Positions 1 to 11,890 of a stretch of 64,000 nucleotides of DNA are shown here, one piece after another (position 1 is the stretch's first letter; the number at the start of each line of letters is the position of its first letter). The notes beneath the pieces were generated by a model that was given only the letters and a program-made list of their open reading frames with translations, did not search any database and was not told the origin of the DNA. Source of the DNA: Bacteroidales bacterium (lineage in GTDB: Bacteria > Bacteroidota > Bacteroidia > Bacteroidales > UBA1556); assembly GCA_027064095.1 (NCBI GenBank), contig JAMOQI010000036.1, positions 31,812 through 95,811 on the forward strand, written 5' to 3'. A program made the translations under genes and the position numbers.

Positions 1-190
1 ATTGATAGTTTGAAGATTTCTCTTGTGAATAGTATATGTCAGCTAGTAGCTGTGGCGAAATTACATAAGCATCATATTGCGCATTTTTAGCTGCTTCTTG
101 AGGTGTTAATACAAATGTTTTTTTGTTACTATTAGAACAGGAGCTAAAAGCTAAGATTCCAATTAAATAAATAAATATGTATTTTTTCAT
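1..190 (-). CDS. Partial lipoprotein, probably rhodanese-like; continues off the left edge
   Basis: Reverse-strand translation MKKYIFIYLIGILAFSSCSNSNKKTFVLTPQEAAKNAQYDAYVISPQLLADIYYSQEKSSNYQ...; lipobox FSSC; rhodanese-like N-terminal pattern, adjacent to another rhodanese-like gene. Confidence 0.6.
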   Translation of the reverse strand, partial: MKKYIFIYLIGILAFSSCSNSNKKTFVLTPQEAAKNAQYDAYVISPQLLADIYYSQEKSSNYQ

Positions 191-202
191 AATATCTGAG
201 TT

Positions 203-829
203 TTAGTCACAACCTCCTCCGGCTGCTTGTTTTTTCTTACGTTTAATTGCCACTTTAGGTTTTGGAGCACTTGTTGATACTTCACCGGTTGCAGAACCAC
301 CACCAAAATATGCACTAGCAGCTTTCCTAAAGTTATATCTTTCAAATTCTTCTCGGCTAGCTGTTTCGCTAGGTTCAGTAGGTCTTAATATGGTTTCAAC
401 CCAATTGTTAAGTCCTCCTTTTAGGATAAAGTTGTTTTTATATCCTAGTCTTTTAGTAAGCATCCATGCTTTTACTGCCAAGTCTGAACTATTTGAATAA
501 AACACTACTGTTTGCACATCTTGATTTATAATATCTCTATACTCATTATCCAATATTTTTTCTATAGGAATATTAATGGCACCGGGAAGACTGTAGCTAA
601 CAAATTCTTTATTTTCTCTTAAGTCTATTAGAGTTAAAGTAGGGTCGTCAGACATTAATCTTCTAGCTAGTTCGTCAGTAGTAATATATTTGTCGCTTTG
701 ACTTATGATATTTATTATATCGCAAGGCTGAATTCTGTTGGTAGGGGTATTACTAGCAGTGTTTACTATAAATGCCCATAAAGAACCAATTAATAGTAAA
801 CCAACAAATAATGCATCTAATTTCTTCAT
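203..829 (-). CDS. Membrane-anchored rhodanese-like domain protein with C-terminal GGGCD tail
   Basis: Motifs LIDLRENKEFVSYSLPGAINIP and ILKGGLNNW; N-terminal TM helix from the internal Met at 829 (MKKLDALFVGLLL). Confidence 0.8.
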   Translation of the reverse strand: MKKLDALFVGLLLIGSLWAFIVNTASNTPTNRIQPCDIINIISQSDKYITTDELARRLMSDDPTLTLIDLRENKEFVSYSLPGAINIPIEKILDNEYRDIINQDVQTVVFYSNSSDLAVKAWMLTKRLGYKNNFILKGGLNNWVETILRPTEPSETASREEFERYNFRKAASAYFGGGSATGEVSTSAPKPKVAIKRKKKQAAGGGCD

Positions 830-839
830 CGTATTTGTT

Positions 840-1442
840 TTAAAGTTGATAATCACGTTTGGAAGTAACTTTTTTTTGTATCAAGGTAACAGCAAAAAAC
901 ATTATTGCAGCTATTACTGTCATAAGGAAAATAAATAGTCCATCGCTTATTCCCATCCAATCTGCAATATTTACTTTTCCCATTTTCCCACTATTCCTGA
1001 GAGTCTCCCACAAAGGTTCGTAAGTAAAGGCATAAAAGAAAATTCCGATAAAAATTCCTAGAACGAAGACCATCGCATCTATTTTACCTGTAACTGCTGC
1101 ACATAAGCTTGTTCCGGGACAAAATCCCCCAATTAAAAATCCAAAAGCCATTATACCTCCACCTATGAGTGTTGGAATCCAAAATGTTTTTGGGTAAAAG
1201 ATTGATTGAATATCTATGTATCCATAATGATTCATCAAAAATAATCCTATTGCTGCTGTTATTCCAGCAGAGAAAAATACTTTTAGTACTACGAAATCAT
1301 ATCCGTAAAATACTCCTGCCAGTTTTCTTGTATTAGTGAATCCAGCAGCTTCGAGAAGAAAACCGAATCCTATACCAATAAAAAATCCTATTAGCATATT
1401 TATTTCATCACTTATTATTCCTAGTGGATATAAAGGTCCCAT
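840..1442 (-). CDS. YeeE/YedE-like (sulfur transport) membrane protein
   Basis: GGFCPGTSLCAAVTGKIDAMVF motif, multiple TM helices, sulfur gene context. Confidence 0.85.
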   Translation of the reverse strand: MGPLYPLGIISDEINMLIGFFIGIGFGFLLEAAGFTNTRKLAGVFYGYDFVVLKVFFSAGITAAIGLFLMNHYGYIDIQSIFYPKTFWIPTLIGGGIMAFGFLIGGFCPGTSLCAAVTGKIDAMVFVLGIFIGIFFYAFTYEPLWETLRNSGKMGKVNIADWMGISDGLFIFLMTVIAAIMFFAVTLIQKKVTSKRDYQL

Positions 1443-1465: not shown

Positions 1466-1984
1466 TTAAATCCATAATTTTCTGAAAAAGTATGCTATTA
1501 CATAGCCTCCTCCAAAAATAGCTACTAAGCCAATAAATCCTGAGAGTGATAATACTCCCATTCCTGACATTACCATTCCAGAGGTGCAGCCTCTACCTAA
1601 TTGAGATCCTACTCCAAAGAGTATTCCTCCAATTAATGCAGCAATAAGCCTGGTTTTATTAGTAATATGAGGAGCTTTTACTACTTGTAATTTTAATCTT
1701 CCATAAATTGCTGCGGAAAGAATTGCTCCAGCAATAACACCAATTATTTCAAAAACAAGCCATGTTTTTGCAGGTGATTTTTCTTCATCTTTTACTCTTG
1801 CTTTGAAAAAGTGCGCTTCTTTTGCATAGTCATGGTTTATATCATTTACGGCTGTTATAACAACAGCCTTCATAGCGCCACTAGCTCCAAGTCCTTCTCC
1901 TGAGAAATAATAGGCTGCTATCATAAAAACGCCAATTAATATTCCCGCTAGGTAAGAGTTCATATATGTTTTACTTCTGTCCAT
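1466..1984 (-). CDS. YeeE/YedE-like (sulfur transport) membrane protein
   Basis: GVGSQLGRGCTSGMVMSGMGVLS motif, multiple TM helices. Confidence 0.85.
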   Translation of the reverse strand: MDRSKTYMNSYLAGILIGVFMIAAYYFSGEGLGASGAMKAVVITAVNDINHDYAKEAHFFKARVKDEEKSPAKTWLVFEIIGVIAGAILSAAIYGRLKLQVVKAPHITNKTRLIAALIGGILFGVGSQLGRGCTSGMVMSGMGVLSLSGFIGLVAIFGGGYVIAYFFRKLWI

Positions 1985-2005: not shown

Positions 2006-3007
2006 TTATAATATGTTAAATCCTGATGCTTGGCCACAATATACCATTATGAATCTGAATAATAATCCTCCTAACAAAACTAGAAATGCCGGTATTGCTA
2101 TTGGAATGTGAAATCCTGACAGCTCCATAATCTCCAATATTGCTGGTAGTATAAGGCCCATACTTACAACAAGTACCCAGAAATAAACTGTAAATGGGCC
2201 CCCTAAGAACAATTGAGCAGCTTCAACTTGTGCTATACCACTTGATAACATTCCCATAAATAAATGGATGATAAAGAATAATTCTACAGCAATAAGGAAC
2301 AAATCTATTTTACTATATAGCTTTCTTTCTAAAGGGTTGTTTGATAACCACATTAATAAGGCGGCAGCTGTTGAAACTCCGGAAGTAAGGAAAAGAGGTC
2401 CTAGTATGGCTGAATTCCATAATGGACGTGCATTGAACGCAGATAGTAGAATACCTGTATATACACCTAATACAATTGATAAAAAAAGAGTAAAGTAAGC
2501 AGCTATTTTTTTGTTTTTATTAAAGATATTTATTATCCAAGGTAAAATAGGAAGTTTATTAATTAGGTTATTCGCCCATATTAATATACCTGTAATCTTG
2601 CATTTTGGGTTTCGTTCTTGTAGATATTTAATGCTGTCATCCAAATAAGTGATAGGCCATAATATGGCAGGAATCATTATAACTGTTAAAGTCCACGCTC
2701 CCCACGACATTGGCGACATCATTCTTATATGTAATAGTAATTGCCAAAAGTAGAGCTTATGGTGTAAGTCAAAAACTAATAAACCTAGTCCGATGATTAT
2801 TATAATTGGAGTTAATATAGGGGCTACTTTTATTGTCATAGGCATAGAATTTCCCTTTCCTTTTAGATAAAAGAAATTAGCAAAAAACAATAAACCAGCA
2901 GCTAAACCACCAATAAACAGATAGATTGCAATAGTGCCTCCCCAAATCTCCAAATGTGGATTAATATGAGGTAAAGCTTTTCCACTGACGTATAATACTT
3001 CTTCCAT
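2006..3007 (-). CDS. NrfD/PsrC-family membrane subunit of polysulfide/thiosulfate reductase-type complex
   Basis: Polytopic protein with PsrC/NrfD-like N-terminus (EIWGGTIAIYLFIGGLAAGLLFFANFFYL), next to FeS and molybdopterin subunits. Confidence 0.88.
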   Translation of the reverse strand: MEEVLYVSGKALPHINPHLEIWGGTIAIYLFIGGLAAGLLFFANFFYLKGKGNSMPMTIKVAPILTPIIIIIGLGLLVFDLHHKLYFWQLLLHIRMMSPMSWGAWTLTVIMIPAILWPITYLDDSIKYLQERNPKCKITGILIWANNLINKLPILPWIINIFNKNKKIAAYFTLFLSIVLGVYTGILLSAFNARPLWNSAILGPLFLTSGVSTAAALLMWLSNNPLERKLYSKIDLFLIAVELFFIIHLFMGMLSSGIAQVEAAQLFLGGPFTVYFWVLVVSMGLILPAILEIMELSGFHIPIAIPAFLVLLGGLLFRFIMVYCGQASGFNIL

Positions 3008-3028: not shown

Positions 3029-3565
3029 TTATTTTAAAAAATATAACTGAGGTTTTGTTCCTGCTTCAGGAGCAATTACATACCAATCTTTTGATTCCAG
3101 TGCTTTAGATATAGGGCTTTTAGGGTCGTCTAAATCTCCAAATATCAAGCAACTGGTTGGACAAACTTCTACACAGGCTGTGCTCATACCTTGCTCTAAT
3201 CTATGATCGCAAAAAGTACATTTGTCGATATACCCATCAGGGTGAACATATCTTGCTTCGTAAGGGCAAGCTTCAATACAAGCTCCACAACCTATACACT
3301 CATTATGAGTTACTTTAACAATACCTCCTTCTATTACATGACTTGCTCCTGTTGGACAGGTCCTAACACAAGGGGTGTTTGCGCAATGCATGCATCGCTC
3401 TGATTTAAAGTGCATTTGTACTGTTTCAGGATAGGTTCCTCTTACAGATTCTACTATCCAATCTCTACAATATCCTAATGGTACATTATTTTCTGTTTGA
3501 CACGCTACTACGCAGTCTCCACAACCAACGCATTTTTTTGTGTCCATTGCCATTGCATACCTCAT
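3029..3565 (-). CDS. 4Fe-4S ferredoxin subunit, PsrB/PhsB-like
   Basis: Repeated cysteine motifs CVGCGDCVVAC, CMHCANTPCVRTC, CIGCGACIEACPYEARY, CTFCDHR. Confidence 0.92.
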   Translation of the reverse strand: MRYAMAMDTKKCVGCGDCVVACQTENNVPLGYCRDWIVESVRGTYPETVQMHFKSERCMHCANTPCVRTCPTGASHVIEGGIVKVTHNECIGCGACIEACPYEARYVHPDGYIDKCTFCDHRLEQGMSTACVEVCPTSCLIFGDLDDPKSPISKALESKDWYVIAPEAGTKPQLYFLK

Positions 3566-5871
3566 GATTTAACCTCCTCTTTAATTGTGTCTTTTACTGT
3601 AGTTTTGTTCGCCGGTGCTTTATCTGTTGAAGTCTCGGTGACTTCTTTTTTTGGTTTTTCTAGTAAGAAAGTAACAAAGTTATTACGCATCCCTGTTCCT
3701 CCCATTACAGGGTCAATTTTAATGTTTGTAATTAGAGGAAGATCGTTTATTCCTCTTCCTTTTGCTCTTGATAGTCGTGAATCTGAATGTCCAAATCCAT
3801 GAACCATATATACTGAATCAGGTCGGATTCTTTCAGTAAGTCGTGCTTTTGCAGAATACTCACTTACTACTCCATCTTGATTTTGTAGCCAAATTTCATT
3901 TCCGTTTTCTATTCCCCATAGTTTTGCCGTTTTGGGGTTTATCCATACATTGTTTGTTTCTCTTAAGTCATACAAATAGGGATTGTTTTGAGTACGACCA
4001 AAAGTGTGCATTGGAGCTCTACCGTAAACTAAATGATAAAATCCTGGATCTGGGGATTCATGTCGAGTAAATTTTGGTAGTGGGTCATAACCTTTTTCTG
4101 CAAAGTCTGTAGAATAAAGCTCTATTTTTCCGGTATTGGTATTAAATTCAAAATCTTCGTGTGGCAACAAATAAATGGATTCGTCAGCTTCAAAGGTTTT
4201 AACACCTATTTTCTTCATTTCTTTTAATGATGTTCCAACTTGTTTAAATTGCCAATCAAGCACTTCTTCTAGATCTTTCCAAGGGTAAAATTCTTTTAAC
4301 CCTAATTTGATGCCTAGTTCACGAGCTATCCACCATGCTGGTTTGGAATCATATTTTGGTTCAACTGCAGGCATACGGAATGCAATTTGTGGAATTCTGT
4401 TTTTACCTGCACGTGCATAATCGTGACGTTCAAGGTAAGTACATTCAGGTAATACTACATCTGCATATCCAGTCATTTCCATTGGCATGGTGTCAACAAC
4501 AACAATCAAATCTTGATTGTCCATGGCCTCAAACATTTTCTTTCTGTCAGGAATAGTATTTATAAAGCTTGTTCCTGCAATAAACCAACCTTTAATTTGA
4601 TGCTTTTTAGGAAAATTTGGTAAACTTGCATCAATTAATACATTAGTTAAACCAACTGCTGCATTTTTATATTTATCCTTAGTAATATCTTGCCATGACC
4701 ATTCTGGTTCTGGGAATTCAGCTTTAACAGGGAATTTAGGAAGCCTTTTTCTTACTCCCATATACATTCCGCCTCTACGACCGTATGCTCCTAATAGTGC
4801 ATTTATTATTGCCATAGCTCTTTCTCTCTGGGTATCATCACCATACCAAGTGGTGTGACGACCTGGGTGGATAACGGCTGCAGGAGCAGCAGCAGCCATA
4901 GTGTGTGCTGATTTTCTGATTAATTCGGGATCGATAGTAGTAATACCTGCTGCCCACTCAGGAGTATAATTGGCAACATGTGCTTTTAACTCTTCAAAAC
5001 CAAATGCGTATTGATCAATATATTCTTTATCATAAATATTATCATAAATCAATACATGCATCCAAGCTAATAATAAAGCTATATCGGTACCTGGTTTTAT
5101 TGGTAACCAATGAGTTGCTTTTGCCGCTATAGTTGATAATCTTGGGTCAACAACAATAATACTGGCTTCATTATCAATGGCTGTTGATACTTCTTGTACA
5201 AAAGAGTTATGCATGTTTTCTCCAATATGATTACCAATGAAAACGATACATTTTGAATTTTGCATATCTGCAGGTTCTGGTGAGCCTACTCCTGAACCAA
5301 AGGTGGCAAAGAAGCCAGCTTCTCTAGGACCTGCACATTGTGCATAAGCTGGTTCTGAATGATTTTCATTACCAAAGGCTTTAAATAAATATTCAAAATG
5401 TTTGGCAGGAGCACCATGAACAAATAAAGCCATGTTTTCTTTGCCATAATCTTTCTTTATGCCATTCATTTTCTTGGCAATAAAATCGAAAGCTTCTTCC
5501 CAACTTACTTCCTCAAATTTGTTGTCGGTTTTGTTTCTACGGATTAAAGGTTTTTTTAAACGGTCTTCATCTTGATACATCCCTAATCCCCCAGTACCCC
5601 GTGGACAAAGTTTGCCTCTGGCATGCATGTCAGTTTCGTTACCAATAAGCTTTTTGATATTGCCTTGGTCATCTTTATATACCCAGGCAGCACATTTCCA
5701 AAAACATACTTCGCAATATGTAGGTGTTCGTGTCAGTTTACTCTCTGAATCTGAAGTTGAGAGACTTTTTTCTGCTGCTTTACCTACGGATCCTAATACT
5801 GACCCGGCTACAGCTATCCCTGCTGTTCCTAGTCCAGCAATTTTTATAAACTGTCTCCTGTTTGTTTTCAT
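3562..5871 (-). CDS. Molybdopterin-dependent oxidoreductase, PsrA/PhsA-like catalytic subunit
   Basis: Tat-type signal (NRRQFIKIAGLGTAGIAVAG), FeS motif CEVCFWKC...GKLCPRG, candidate Mo ligand in YAQCAGPREAG; 4-bp overlap with the FeS gene. Confidence 0.9.
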   Translation of the reverse strand: MKTNRRQFIKIAGLGTAGIAVAGSVLGSVGKAAEKSLSTSDSESKLTRTPTYCEVCFWKCAAWVYKDDQGNIKKLIGNETDMHARGKLCPRGTGGLGMYQDEDRLKKPLIRRNKTDNKFEEVSWEEAFDFIAKKMNGIKKDYGKENMALFVHGAPAKHFEYLFKAFGNENHSEPAYAQCAGPREAGFFATFGSGVGSPEPADMQNSKCIVFIGNHIGENMHNSFVQEVSTAIDNEASIIVVDPRLSTIAAKATHWLPIKPGTDIALLLAWMHVLIYDNIYDKEYIDQYAFGFEELKAHVANYTPEWAAGITTIDPELIRKSAHTMAAAAPAAVIHPGRHTTWYGDDTQRERAMAIINALLGAYGRRGGMYMGVRKRLPKFPVKAEFPEPEWSWQDITKDKYKNAAVGLTNVLIDASLPNFPKKHQIKGWFIAGTSFINTIPDRKKMFEAMDNQDLIVVVDTMPMEMTGYADVVLPECTYLERHDYARAGKNRIPQIAFRMPAVEPKYDSKPAWWIARELGIKLGLKEFYPWKDLEEVLDWQFKQVGTSLKEMKKIGVKTFEADESIYLLPHEDFEFNTNTGKIELYSTDFAEKGYDPLPKFTRHESPDPGFYHLVYGRAPMHTFGRTQNNPYLYDLRETNNVWINPKTAKLWGIENGNEIWLQNQDGVVSEYSAKARLTERIRPDSVYMVHGFGHSDSRLSRAKGRGINDLPLITNIKIDPVMGGTGMRNNFVTFLLEKPKKEVTETSTDKAPANKTTVKDTIKEEVKS

Positions 5872-6346: not shown

Positions 6347-6524
6347 GGCTATTAAAATTATTTTCCAAAACTGTTTTTATTTCTTTATTTGAAGCTAAAT
6401 TAAAAAAAAGAAGATTATTTGGAATTAATAATATGAGGATAAAAATAAATTTACACAAGTCCTTTTTTCTATAATTTTGCTAAAATATTCATAGACACAT
6501 TTTTTTATCTTTATTTTATTATTA

Positions 6525-9500
6525 TTGAACCAATTTTTATATAACATATTTAGCCTGTTTCATAAAAGAAAATTAGTTTTCTACTCTATTATTGGAGTAT
6601 TAATATTTGCTGCCTTATTTCTTATTTCAAGGATGAAATTTGAAGAGAACATTAATGATCTTGCTCCAAATGATAACGAAATATCAGTAATAAGCAATAT
6701 TTTTTCTCATAGTAGTTTGGCCGATAAAATTATTATAAGGATAAATAATAAAAATGAACTAAACACCTCTGTCTTAACGCAATATGCCGATTCGTTAACT
6801 TTTAATATAAATAATACTTTAGATTCAAGCATTATAAAGGATGTAAAGTCTAAGATGAATTCAGCAGAAATGCTTTCTAGTTTGGATTTTATGTTTGATC
6901 ATTTGCCAATATTTTTAGAGGATTCTGATTATATTAAATTGGATGAAATAATCTCCGAGCAGTCGATTATAAAAAGCATGTCAGCTAATTATAGGGCTCT
7001 TACTTCACCTGCCAATTTTGGTTTTAAAAAGTTTATTCTTAAAGATCCACTTAGTATTAACAGATTGGCTACTGCAAAGTTAAATAGTTTTAGAGAGGTT
7101 AATGGTTTTCAACTGATTGATAATTATATTTTTAGTGCTGATAAAGCTAATTTACTGATATTTATAGATTTAAAAAATAGTCAAAACACGGCTTTAATAA
7201 ATAGATTTGACAAAAAGTTGTCTGGAATATTACAAAGGCTGAATTCTTACAAAGACTTTGATAATGTTGTTGTTCATTATTTTGGAGGTCCATTGGTGGC
7301 AGCTTCAAATGCTAATCAAATAAAGAAAGACATTGTTCTGACAGTATCTTTAGCTTTGGTATTATTAGTATTTCTTATTAGTTACTATTATAGGTCTAAG
7401 AGATCAGTTATTATAATATTTCTACCAACTTTTATTGCAGCAATTTTTTCTTTAGCACTAGTTTCTTTAATCCAAGGTGGAATATCATTAATATCATTAG
7501 GGGTTGGTTCGGTACTTCTTGGGATATCAGTTGATTATGGTCTACATATTTTTGGTCATTATCGTAATAATCAAGACTTATCAAAGCTGTTTGCTGAGGT
7601 TGGACAGCCAATACTAATAAGTGCATTAACCACTTCTGCCGCTTTTTTTAGTCTTACAGCTCTTGAGTCAAAAGTGATATCTGATTTGGGTATGTTTCTT
7701 GGGATAAGTATATTGTTTAGTGCTTTCTTGTCCTTGTTTTTATTTCCAATGCTTCTTCCTGGAAAGCTGCCAAAGAGCAACAAAAAGCTAAATATTATTG
7801 ATAGGGTTGCAGCTATTGATTTCAGTAGAAAAAAATATTTTTTTATTGGGGTGTTGTTGATTACTGTAGTGTTTATTTTTATGGATCACGAAAGTCATTT
7901 TACGTCTGATTTAAGTGATAATAATTATATGAATAAATCTCTTCAGCAGTCTGAAAAATCAATAAATAGTTTGATTGGCCTCGATAGTAGTCGTAATATG
8001 TTTGTTGCAAGTTGTGGTTATAATTTAGAAGAAGCTTTGAGACATAATGAAGAAATTCAAAGTGTGATAACTAATCTTAATAGACAAAAATTAACCAACT
8101 ATGAAATAAATACTGCTTTACTAACACCCTCTGTAAAGAAGCAGAATGAGAGAATTGAAAAGTGGAATAAGTATTGGACTCCTAATAAAAAATTAGCTGT
8201 TTTGGCAATTCTGCAAAAGCAAATTAATAAATATGGCTTTAAACCAACAGCATTTTTTGCATTCGAGAAGTGGCTGGGAAAATCTTTTAAACCCGTTGAA
8301 CCGGAAGATAGTCCTTTATTCAAAGAATTTGTTAAAGATTTTGTAGTAGAATTTGATAATAAGACCTATGTTTTATGTCAGCTTAATGTTTCGAAAAATG
8401 AGGAAACCCAGAATGCTATTATAAAAAATCTCAAAAATTCCAAAGTGCAAATTGTAGATAAACTTTATTTTACCAAAACATTACTTAATAAACTTAAAAT
8501 TGGATTTGATAAATTGGCATTCTATTCTTTGGGCTTGGTTTTTTTAATACTTCTTATAAGTTATGGCAGAATTGAGTTGGCAATAATAAGTTTTGCTCCG
8601 GTAATTATCAGTTGGCTATGGATATTAGCTATTATGAATATTTTTAGTATCGAGTTTAATATATTTAATGTTATTATACTATCTTTTGTATTTGGTCTGG
8701 GAATCGATTATAGCGTATTTTATCTTCGTTCTTTGATTCTAAAACATAAATATGGAGAACAGCAATCTAATGCATACAGAGCCTCGATACTGATAAGTGC
8801 GTTAACATCAATAATAGGAATAGGAGTATTAGTTTTTGCAAAACATCCGGCTATGCATTCTATTGCACTTACATCAATAGTAGGAATAAGCACTATTGTA
8901 ATTATTACATTTACAATATTACCTGCAGCTTTTCGCTGGATTACGGAATGGAAGAATGCTAAGCCAAGAGAGAAAGTGATTACTTTTACTGATACACTTA
9001 CTTCAATTTTGTTTTTTGTAATATATGTAACAGGATCGATAACGTTAACATTATTAGTTCCATTGTTTATTATTTTTCCTGCTCCAAAACGACAAAAGAA
9101 ATTTGCATTTCATTATTTGGTGCAATTCTTTTCAGCGCATATCTTTTTACATCCAAGCATCCCTATTAAAATAATAAATGATTATAAGGAGAAATTTAAA
9201 GAACCGGCTATTATTATTAGTAATCATCAATCGGTTATTGATATAATGCTGATGTTGTTGCTTCATCCTAAAATATTGATAGTTACCAATGAAAGAGTTT
9301 GGAAACATTGGCTTTGGGGAGCAATTCTTCGTTATGCTGATTATTATCCTGCATTTGCTGGTTATGAAAATATGATGGAGGATATCAAAACAAAGCTTAA
9401 GTATGGATATTCGTTAATGGTTTTTCCCGAAGGTACCAGAAGTATTAATGGAGATATTAGACGTTTTCATAAAGGTGCTTTTATGATGGCTAAAGAATTG

Positions 9501-10376
9501 AGTTTGCCAATATTGCCAATAATTATTCATGGTGTAAATGAAACTTTGCGTAAAGGTGAATTCTTCCTTTTCTCCGGGAAAATTAGTTTAAAAATTATGC
9601 CAAGAATTGAAATATCTGAGCTTCCATATGATGTTAGTGTAGCTGCTGTAGCAAAAAATATGACACAATATTATAGGAGTAATTATGAAGAGCTTCGAAA
9701 GGAAGTTGCCGGTGTAAATTATTACTCTTTGAAATTAAGAAGAAATTTCTTGTATAAAGGTCCTGTCTTAGAGTGGTATTTTAAGGTGAAATTCAGGATG
9801 GAGGAAAAATATAAATCTTTTGATTCTTGGGTGCCTAGAGATGCAAAAATAATTGATCTTGGTTGTGGTTATGGATTCCTGGATTTAATGTTAGGAATGA
9901 TTAGTAAGAAAAGAGAGATAATTGGTGTTGATTTTGATGAGGAGAAAATAAAAGTAGCTCGGAATTCAGCTATAAGACCTGATAGTGTAAAATTTATTCA
10001 TGGTGATGTTACTAAATTTGAGTTAGAACAGGCTGATGTATTCCTTATCTTAGATACTTTGCATTATTTCCACAGAGATAAGCAAATTGTATTAATCAAA
10101 AACTGTATAAAACATCTTAATCCAAATGGTAAAATCATTATTAGAGATGCTAATACTGATTTAGAAGAAAAACATAAAGGAACTGAGTTTACCGAAAAAA
10201 TGTCAACAGGAATTGGTTTTAATAAGGCAAAATTTAGTGAAATGGATTTTATATCTTCGCAGTTAATAAGAGAAACAGCTTCTCAGATGAATTGTAGTTT
10301 TAAAGTATTGAATGAGAGTAAGCATTTATCTAATATAGTATATGAGATAAGACATAATGAGGTAAAAGAGAAATAA
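6525..10376 (+). CDS. Fusion: MMPL/RND-type transporter + lysophospholipid acyltransferase + class I SAM methyltransferase
   Basis: Two MMPL-like TM blocks; PlsC motifs NHQSVID (HX4D) and FPEGTRS; methyltransferase motif IIDLGCGYGFLDLMLG. Track start codon is TTG. Confidence 0.88.
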   Translation: MNQFLYNIFSLFHKRKLVFYSIIGVLIFAALFLISRMKFEENINDLAPNDNEISVISNIFSHSSLADKIIIRINNKNELNTSVLTQYADSLTFNINNTLDSSIIKDVKSKMNSAEMLSSLDFMFDHLPIFLEDSDYIKLDEIISEQSIIKSMSANYRALTSPANFGFKKFILKDPLSINRLATAKLNSFREVNGFQLIDNYIFSADKANLLIFIDLKNSQNTALINRFDKKLSGILQRLNSYKDFDNVVVHYFGGPLVAASNANQIKKDIVLTVSLALVLLVFLISYYYRSKRSVIIIFLPTFIAAIFSLALVSLIQGGISLISLGVGSVLLGISVDYGLHIFGHYRNNQDLSKLFAEVGQPILISALTTSAAFFSLTALESKVISDLGMFLGISILFSAFLSLFLFPMLLPGKLPKSNKKLNIIDRVAAIDFSRKKYFFIGVLLITVVFIFMDHESHFTSDLSDNNYMNKSLQQSEKSINSLIGLDSSRNMFVASCGYNLEEALRHNEEIQSVITNLNRQKLTNYEINTALLTPSVKKQNERIEKWNKYWTPNKKLAVLAILQKQINKYGFKPTAFFAFEKWLGKSFKPVEPEDSPLFKEFVKDFVVEFDNKTYVLCQLNVSKNEETQNAIIKNLKNSKVQIVDKLYFTKTLLNKLKIGFDKLAFYSLGLVFLILLISYGRIELAIISFAPVIISWLWILAIMNIFSIEFNIFNVIILSFVFGLGIDYSVFYLRSLILKHKYGEQQSNAYRASILISALTSIIGIGVLVFAKHPAMHSIALTSIVGISTIVIITFTILPAAFRWITEWKNAKPREKVITFTDTLTSILFFVIYVTGSITLTLLVPLFIIFPAPKRQKKFAFHYLVQFFSAHIFLHPSIPIKIINDYKEKFKEPAIIISNHQSVIDIMLMLLLHPKILIVTNERVWKHWLWGAILRYADYYPAFAGYENMMEDIKTKLKYGYSLMVFPEGTRSINGDIRRFHKGAFMMAKELSLPILPIIIHGVNETLRKGEFFLFSGKISLKIMPRIEISELPYDVSVAAVAKNMTQYYRSNYEELRKEVAGVNYYSLKLRRNFLYKGPVLEWYFKVKFRMEEKYKSFDSWVPRDAKIIDLGCGYGFLDLMLGMISKKREIIGVDFDEEKIKVARNSAIRPDSVKFIHGDVTKFELEQADVFLILDTLHYFHRDKQIVLIKNCIKHLNPNGKIIIRDANTDLEEKHKGTEFTEKMSTGIGFNKAKFSEMDFISSQLIRETASQMNCSFKVLNESKHLSNIVYEIRHNEVKEK

Positions 10377-10387
10377 TAACTTTGTAT

Positions 10388-11890
10388 ATGAATAAATACG
10401 ACTTTGCTATAATTGGTGGTGGAATAGGAGGGCTTATTATGGCTCAAATATTAAATAAAAAAGGGCAAAAAGTAATATTGCTTGAGAAAGAAAAACAACT
10501 GGGCGGAGCAATACAAGGTTTTAGCCGAATGGGTGTTAATTTCGATACCGGTGCGCATTATATAGGAGGTATTGAAAAGGGGCAGAATTTGTATCAATAT
10601 TTTAAATATTTGGGAATTGTTGATGAACTCAATATAGAAAAACTGGATGTAAATGCATTTGATAAAATTACTTTCGAATCCAATGGTAAAACCTATTGCT
10701 ATGGACAAGGATATGATAATTTTGTAAATGTAATGAGTAATTATTTTCCCGAAAATAGAGGAGAAATTCAAAAATATGTTGACGAAATAAGGAAAGTTGG
10801 AGAAGCTTATCCAATGTATTCACTTGATATTTCGAAAGGAGTAGAAATAAAATTAGAAGAGAAGCATTTATACCAAAGTGTTGGAGAATTTCTAGATGGT
10901 ATAACTCAAAATCAAGAACTAAAGAATGTACTTGCAGCTTCTAATTTGGTATATGCAGGTAATAGTGAAACTACTCCTTATTATGTTCATGCATTAATAC
11001 TAAATTCATATTTGTCAAGTTCGTACCGATTTGTTGGTGGTGCTTCTCAATTGGCTTACCGATTGCTGGAAAAAATTGAAGCGGGAAATTGTGAAGTGCG
11101 TACAAATGCTGAAGTTTCTCATTTTACTTTTGGAGAAGGAAAAGAAATTAAAACAGCAGTATTAAATAATGGTGAAGAGATTATTGCAGATAATTATATT
11201 TCAAATGTTCATCCATCTGTAACATTAGATATGATTCCTAAAGATAAAATTCGAAAGGCTTATAGAATGAGAATTCAAAGTTTAGAGAATACATATTCTG
11301 TTTTTTCTATTTATATTGTTTTAAAGCCCAATTCTTTTAAAAATCATAGGTATAACTCATACTATTTTAGTGATGATGATATTTGGTCAGAGGAAAATAT
11401 AGAGCCAACATGGCCAAAGACTTTTATGATGATAACACAAAGTTCTACTAAAAATTCCACTTATGCTGAAGGTATTACTGCAATAAGCCCTATGGATTAT
11501 AGTTTTGTAGAGGAATGGGCCGGTACAAAACATAAAAGCAGACCACAATCGTACTATGATTTTTGTCAACAGATGGGAAATAAATTCTTAGATTTGTTGG
11601 AGAAAAATCATCCGGGACTAAGAAATAAAATTAAGTATTATGAGGTAAGCACACCATTATCTTACGAGCATTATACAAATTCTCCACGAGGCTCATTATA
11701 TGGTATTATTCGTAATTCAAAAGACCCCATTCGAACACATATCGCACCCTATACAAAAGTTCCAAATTTATTTTTTGTAGGACAAAATATTGATATACAT
11801 GGAATTTTGGGTATTACAGTAGGTGCATTTATGACTGCGGGTTTATTTTTTGATGTAAAGAAACTTTTGAATGAAGTAAAGAAGTCATAA
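10388..11890 (+). CDS. NAD(P)/FAD-dependent oxidoreductase, CrtI/phytoene desaturase-like
   Basis: N-terminal FAD-binding DFAIIGGGIGGLIMAQILNKKGQKVILLEKEKQLGG; C-terminal NLFFVGQNIDIHGILGITVGAFMTAG. ATG at 10388 preferred over TTG at 10382. Confidence 0.85.
   Translation: MNKYDFAIIGGGIGGLIMAQILNKKGQKVILLEKEKQLGGAIQGFSRMGVNFDTGAHYIGGIEKGQNLYQYFKYLGIVDELNIEKLDVNAFDKITFESNGKTYCYGQGYDNFVNVMSNYFPENRGEIQKYVDEIRKVGEAYPMYSLDISKGVEIKLEEKHLYQSVGEFLDGITQNQELKNVLAASNLVYAGNSETTPYYVHALILNSYLSSSYRFVGGASQLAYRLLEKIEAGNCEVRTNAEVSHFTFGEGKEIKTAVLNNGEEIIADNYISNVHPSVTLDMIPKDKIRKAYRMRIQSLENTYSVFSIYIVLKPNSFKNHRYNSYYFSDDDIWSEENIEPTWPKTFMMITQSSTKNSTYAEGITAISPMDYSFVEEWAGTKHKSRPQSYYDFCQQMGNKFLDLLEKNHPGLRNKIKYYEVSTPLSYEHYTNSPRGSLYGIIRNSKDPIRTHIAPYTKVPNLFFVGQNIDIHGILGITVGAFMTAGLFFDVKKLLNEVKKS

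Follow-up and report, generated by a model that had tools for sequence, protein, structure and literature searches.

Sud of Wolinella works through the cysteine of its rhodanese loop, and SoxY carries the C-terminal motif GGCGG. SoxY is a periplasmic carrier that holds sulfur on the cysteine of a swinging arm (PMC11237559), and DsrC is persulfurated on the penultimate cysteine of a flexible C-terminal arm (PMC3397948). The YedE1E2 channel is reported to import, and not to export, zero-valent sulfur via two essential cysteines (PMC10812762). For thiosulfate uptake, YeeE and YeeD (TsuA-TsuB) combine a channel with a cysteine-bearing sulfur-handling partner, at times fused to it (PMC11073785), an arrangement similar to the one described here. 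Handover of sulfane sulfur to a YeeE-type channel has been put forward for SoxT as a proposal only (PMC11582611), and the protein described below, RhoA, bears on how sulfane sulfur is exchanged between such channels and redox enzymes of the periplasm. We found in the literature neither a dedicated tailed rhodanese nor a rhodanese fusion for the described YedE1E2/PmpAB pairs, and a search made largely without subscription papers returned no earlier description of a tailed rhodanese lacking its cysteine.

RhoA is a rhodanese-like protein without the loop cysteine

The window analyzed here is a stretch of 64,000 nucleotides from a Bacteroidales genome. It holds at 203..829 a gene for a protein of 208 residues, RhoA, which an initial annotation had described as rhodanese-like without stating the strand. 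The gene lies on the minus strand, with its ATG at 829 and its stop at 203-205. The rhodanese assignment was borne out by Pfam, in which the only family matched was PF00581, over residues 51-145 and nearly the full profile (E = 5e-16). An AlphaFold2 model built with 66 sequences reached a mean pLDDT of 87.5, with values above 90 in the rhodanese domain and a helix at residues 159-174 on its C-terminal side, and when submitted to Foldseek it retrieved rhodaneses. Residues 3-25 (755..823, minus strand) were identified by hydropathy and in the model as a single hydrophobic helix following a Lys-rich start. By the positive-inside rule, this transmembrane anchor would most likely leave the remainder of RhoA, the rhodanese domain included, on the periplasmic side.

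The active-site loop of RhoA reads VVFYSNSSDLA (residues 108-118; 476..508, minus strand), and Ser112 (codon 494-496) occupies the position of the catalytic cysteine by which an active rhodanese is recognized. The loss of this cysteine, claimed in the initial annotation, held once the sequences were correctly aligned: among 87 A-type (RhoA-like) proteins the position was Ser in 77, Gly in 8, and Thr and Ala in one each, with cysteine in none. Cysteine was likewise absent from the loop in all 31 collected fusions of a rhodanese to the YeeE1 half-channel. In the control set of generic Bacteroidales rhodaneses, all 15 proteins with a readable loop had the cysteine. The companion families are less uniform. 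The loop cysteine is present in 7 of 50 B (RhoB-like) paralogues and in several Rho3 proteins, and some B and Rho3 proteins combine it with the C-terminal tail described next. A strict co-variation between loss of the loop cysteine and gain of the tail, which had also been envisaged, is thereby ruled out.

The C-terminal arm ends in a conserved GGC

The last 33 or so residues of RhoA (176-208; 206..304, minus strand) are predicted to form a disordered arm, with a pLDDT of about 57-63. The arm closes with the module KRKKKQAAGGGCD (residues 196-208; 206..244, minus strand), in which Cys207 is the penultimate residue (codon 209-211), as expected from the GGGC-D tail first noted. The one other cysteine of RhoA, Cys36, is conserved in close relatives but not beyond.

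Alignments of 26 RhoA orthologues and of 16 RhoB-like paralogues showed the terminal GGC to be invariant in both sets, and among the orthologues the linker before it varied in length and sequence. In the wider collection, an ending of the form [G/E]GC(x) was found in 86 of 87 A-type proteins, in 46 of 49 family B proteins, and in all 31 fusions; the three remaining B proteins have a cysteine within their last six residues, and one further B match (L007) is an unrelated rhodanese that was left out of the 49. For 56 of the 87 A-type proteins, the tail holds the sole cysteine of the last 185 residues. Named genomes were searched with a narrower alignment as query, and among the best 80 of 198 loci the tail was present in 79; the exceptional locus is frame-shifted in the tail and encodes KKAVQGGCS in another frame. 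The cysteine is penultimate in the genus of the window and the last residue in many others, and most relatives close with GGC or EGC. One of these two endings, next to a YeeE pair, was also seen in distant homologues throughout the phylum, and Bacteroidota carrying the gene include Labilibaculum, Ancylomarina, Carboxylicivirga, and Mariniphaga. The tail cysteine is thus conserved well beyond close orthologues, where its absence would have told against the initial annotation. By comparison, none of 19 generic Bacteroidales rhodaneses had a cysteine within the last three residues, and across the source genome the DNA pattern GGGC-x-stop marked only RhoA and RhoB. With GGC invariant in the 26 orthologues, [GE]GC(x) in 86 of 87 A-type proteins, and a loop cysteine in none of the 87, conservation of the tail is far from chance.

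The tail had first been read as a basic linker, glycines, and a cysteine. The GGC part of that reading stands, and the basic stretch is not universal. The linker can be acidic or neutral, as in EIEKPVSGGC, and the basic linker was therefore rejected as an essential element, leaving GGC alone as essential. Two loci keep a terminal cysteine with the GG changed: L294 (1165-1860) ends in DLRFQC and L291 (668-1873) in HAGGLCG.

The YeeE pair is the constant neighbor of the tailed rhodanese

Upstream of rhoA on the minus strand are genes that agree with the sulfur-reductase/YeeE cluster of the initial annotation. They encode a PsrA/PhsA-like molybdopterin catalytic subunit (3562..5871; Pfam Molybdopterin), a PsrB/PhsB/NrfC-like subunit with ferredoxin-type 4Fe-4S domains (3029..3565; Fer4_11 and others), an NrfD/PsrC-like quinone-interacting membrane subunit (2006..3007; PF03916, 2.7e-43), and two half-size Sulf_transp proteins that together make up a split YeeE/YedE channel. 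YeeE2 (1466..1984), with the motif GRGCTSG, matches PF04143 profile positions 176-309 and is the C-terminal half; YeeE1 (840..1442), with GGFCPGT, matches positions 10-159 and is the N-terminal half. The CPGT of YeeE1 is kept in 154 of 155 homologues, and a search of the PDB with the YeeE1 sequence matched only an irrelevant ribosomal protein. The best solved relative of the catalytic subunit is the polysulfide/thiosulfate reductase 2vpw (E = 2.2e-190, residues 4-741), which together with the FeS and NrfD subunits marks the enzyme as PsrABC-type.

On the other side of rhoA is the start of rhoB (2..190, minus strand), cut by the window edge. The full gene occupies 6391-7002 on the whole contig (L004) and encodes a second rhodanese by Pfam, a lipoprotein (LAFSSC) with the C-terminus KRKKKAAAGGGCD; judged by the N-terminus, lipoproteins are common among B-type proteins. 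Just outside the window, Rho3 (L004:5251-6357, minus strand) is a lipoprotein with two rhodanese domains by Pfam, a Cys loop (YCFTG) in the second, and the C-terminus EVCD. Relatives of Rho3 in L073, L119, and L120 end in GGCE or GGC, with tails like those of RhoA and RhoB, and others have no tail. Downstream of Rho3 (L004:2090-4776) are an octaheme-type cytochrome (PF11783) and a cytochrome b561 that carries a PAS domain at its C-terminus; for a membrane subunit of respiration this is an odd combination. The operon encodes no cytosolic sulfur acceptor; TusA is found elsewhere in the genome.

Two operon types were distinguished, PsrA-PsrB-NrfD-YeeE2-YeeE1-RhoA(-RhoB-Rho3) as type 1 and OTR-cytb-YeeE2-YeeE1::Rho as type 2, and the cluster at the window combines parts of both. 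The order from PsrA to RhoA was found in nearly all sufficiently long named loci among the best 80 of 198. The PsrABC-type genes of the RhoA operon, and the supply of sulfur to PsrABC by the periplasmic rhodanese Sud in Campylobacterota (PMC10092268), could suggest that the arm of RhoA supplies the PsrA active site with sulfane sulfur for conversion to sulfide, with YeeE a separate supplier or anchor. In type 2, however, the tailed rhodanese forms one protein with YeeE1 and is accompanied by OTR and cytochrome b without PsrABC, so that PsrA cannot be the general partner, and we consider such a feeding role, the main alternative to the reading given below, unlikely. Since OTR and cytochrome b replace PsrABC there, it is the YeeE pair, and not the reductase, that is the constant neighbor, and the pair is accordingly the strongest candidate for a partner of the arm, rather than just the sulfur-reductase cluster as a whole.

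In fusion proteins the tailed rhodanese is joined to YeeE1

In each of the 31 collected fusions the part joined to the tailed rhodanese was the YeeE1 half-channel. The proteins comprise about 400 residues, in the order YeeE1, anchor helix, rhodanese, and tail, and match both Sulf_transp and Rhodanese in Pfam. The AlphaFold2 model was good for the rhodanese part and of low confidence for the channel half. Hydropathy places the N-terminus of the YeeE1 half outside and its basic C-terminus inside, followed by one more helix, which would put the rhodanese part outside. Invariant positions are few in this part (Asp, Arg, Pro, Gly, Leu), and the terminal GGC is invariant, indicating that selection is firmer on the tail than on the decayed domain.

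RhoA and RhoB of the same genome have matched tails

The last 12 residues of the A and B proteins from the same genome were compared in 48 genomes and averaged 0.75 identity, or 0.70 with GGC left out, in contrast to 0.27 outside GGC between genomes and about 0.26 for the A and B domains of the same genomes. When the tail pairs were permuted, identity fell to 0.455, and the highest value that any of 2000 shuffles reached was 0.507. An A tail resembled the B tail of its own genome better than that of the nearest relative in 37 cases, with 6 ties and 5 worse. The likeness is limited to positions -1 to -12, and the residue or residues after the cysteine agree in 44 of 46 pairs. Fourfold-degenerate codons of the A and B tails differ at 56%, which means that the likeness is largely maintained in the protein sequence. 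Recent gene conversion was mostly rejected on the same ground; the tails in L019 and L046, with almost the same codons, could have been copied recently.

Within-genome identity combined with different codons suggests, from the sequences at hand, that both arms fit a shared partner, a rule that is clear for A/B pairs only. Fusion and B tails match weakly (0.26), and the A and fusion tails of the same genome, compared in five genomes, show 0.18 identity; tail matching is therefore a feature of A/B operons.

In a tree of the rhodanese domains, A, B, and the fusions fell on one side and Rho3 and the generic rhodaneses on the other, with moderate support for the dividing branch (84/90). About 9 kb from the RhoA gene of the same genus, L163 encodes a generic-type rhodanese with a loop cysteine (LVCKKGKRS) that ends in EEVGGC. 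It groups with tail-less rhodaneses in the tree, and its tail may have been gained independently.

RhoA compared with described sulfur carriers

The features that define SoxY, DsrC, and Sud were each looked for in RhoA. It has no match to a SoxY-family Pfam entry, ends in GGGCD instead of GGCGG, is built on a rhodanese scaffold with its cysteine last or penultimate in the family, and has no gene for SoxZ or another Sox protein in its operon. Like DsrC/TusE, it has a conserved terminal or penultimate cysteine on a C-terminal arm predicted to be flexible. Unlike them, it has the unrelated rhodanese fold only, has no second arm cysteine, and is predicted to be periplasmic, whereas they are cytoplasmic and partnered by DsrAB and DsrEFH. 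With Sud (1qxn) RhoA shares the rhodanese fold in a weak match (E = 0.0028), a probable periplasmic location, and a genomic link to a psrABC-type reductase; it differs in its loop Ser, its membrane anchor, and its terminal cysteine arm. On these features RhoA is a member of none of the three, and by analogy we propose that it works like DsrC or SoxY. The initial annotation had named SoxY as the analogue for a swinging-arm carrier on a rhodanese. The swinging arm is consistent with the predicted disorder, the YeeE1 fusions, and the co-varying tails, and the placement of the cysteine as last or penultimate residue makes DsrC/TusE a closer analogue than the GGCGG of SoxY.

On the channel side, YeeE1 and YeeE2 resemble the YedE1E2/PmpAB pairs in that both are Sulf_transp proteins of half size and contain conserved Cys motifs (PMC10812762, PMC11582611). 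The partner differs from that of YeeE-YeeD: YeeD is TusA-like and stands at the cytoplasmic exit, whereas RhoA is rhodanese-like and, by its predicted topology, periplasmic.

Proposed role of the arm

The loss of the loop cysteine, the conservation of the tail, the constancy of the operon, the fusion to YeeE1, and the co-variation of paralogue tails, together with the modeled disorder of the arm, form the base of our proposal. We consider it fairly probable that Cys207 is the shuttle by which sulfane sulfur passes between sulfur enzymes of the periplasm and the entrance of the YeeE channel, most likely for import. RhoA would be a membrane-tethered periplasmic carrier using the Cys-less rhodanese fold as a scaffold, and the cysteine of its arm, which ends in GGC(D), would be persulfidated and so hold the sulfane sulfur. 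By swinging, the arm would connect a periplasmic donor or acceptor with the entrance of the split channel formed by YeeE1 and YeeE2, on which its tail may dock. The donor or acceptor would be the PsrABC-type polysulfide/thiosulfate reductase here and, in type 2 operons, the octaheme-cytochrome system; Rho3, often with a loop cysteine, is perhaps another. Import is favored as the direction because uptake of zero-valent sulfur, and no export, has been reported for YedE1E2 pairs; against it stand the respiratory nature of the adjoining reductase, beside which import is unexpected, and the lack of a gene for a cytosolic acceptor in the operon.

The tail cysteine is the only conserved one, and paralogues have matched tails, which might also fit a redox or structural function in which no sulfur is carried and the cysteine binds metal or enters a regulatory disulfide. 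Such a disulfide would have to be inter-protein, with a cysteine of RhoB, Rho3, or YeeE. The alignments, however, show no conserved second metal ligand in the tail, and the strict neighborhood of sulfur-transfer genes and the active-type loop of Rho3 make this function improbable. Least probable of all is that the terminal cysteine is lipidated or otherwise serves localization, as a short motif common to several proteins, with a basic stretch before an invariant cysteine, might suggest, since A-type proteins are already anchored N-terminally, a lipoprotein N-terminus is frequent in the B type, and transmembrane helices are part of the fusion itself, and since a general export or sorting motif was rejected when the in-frame Lys-rich-GGC-stop matches in 40 genomes all proved to belong to the tailed-rhodanese family, with no unrelated exported proteins (three further matches did not have the ending in frame).

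A dead rhodanese with a terminal cysteine as sulfur carrier probably represents a type of carrier arm that has not been described before. The broader proposition is that such proteins, with a GGC arm linking respiratory sulfur enzymes to a split YeeE, often in one polypeptide and with up to three same-tailed proteins per operon sharing one docking site, form a third class of swinging-arm carriers across the Bacteroidota; we regard this as evenly poised. Sulfur carriage by Cys207 would give a role to the widespread "rhodanese-like" genes of sulfur-cycling Bacteroidota and would show a rhodanese fold kept as a scaffold once the chemistry had moved to the tail. Evolution here offers a partner physically fused to a half-channel, with a single testable cysteine. 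In surveys of the sulfur cycle, tailed Cys-less genes should not be counted as active rhodaneses.

Other genes in the window

Elsewhere in the window, genes at 6525-11890 were inspected by eye and look like an aryl-polyene/flexirubin-type lipid cluster. An ORF for 1283 residues on the plus strand (6525-10376) appears to combine an MMPL/RND-like exporter with an acyltransferase and a methyltransferase, and it is followed by a phytoene-desaturase-like flavoprotein (10382-11890).
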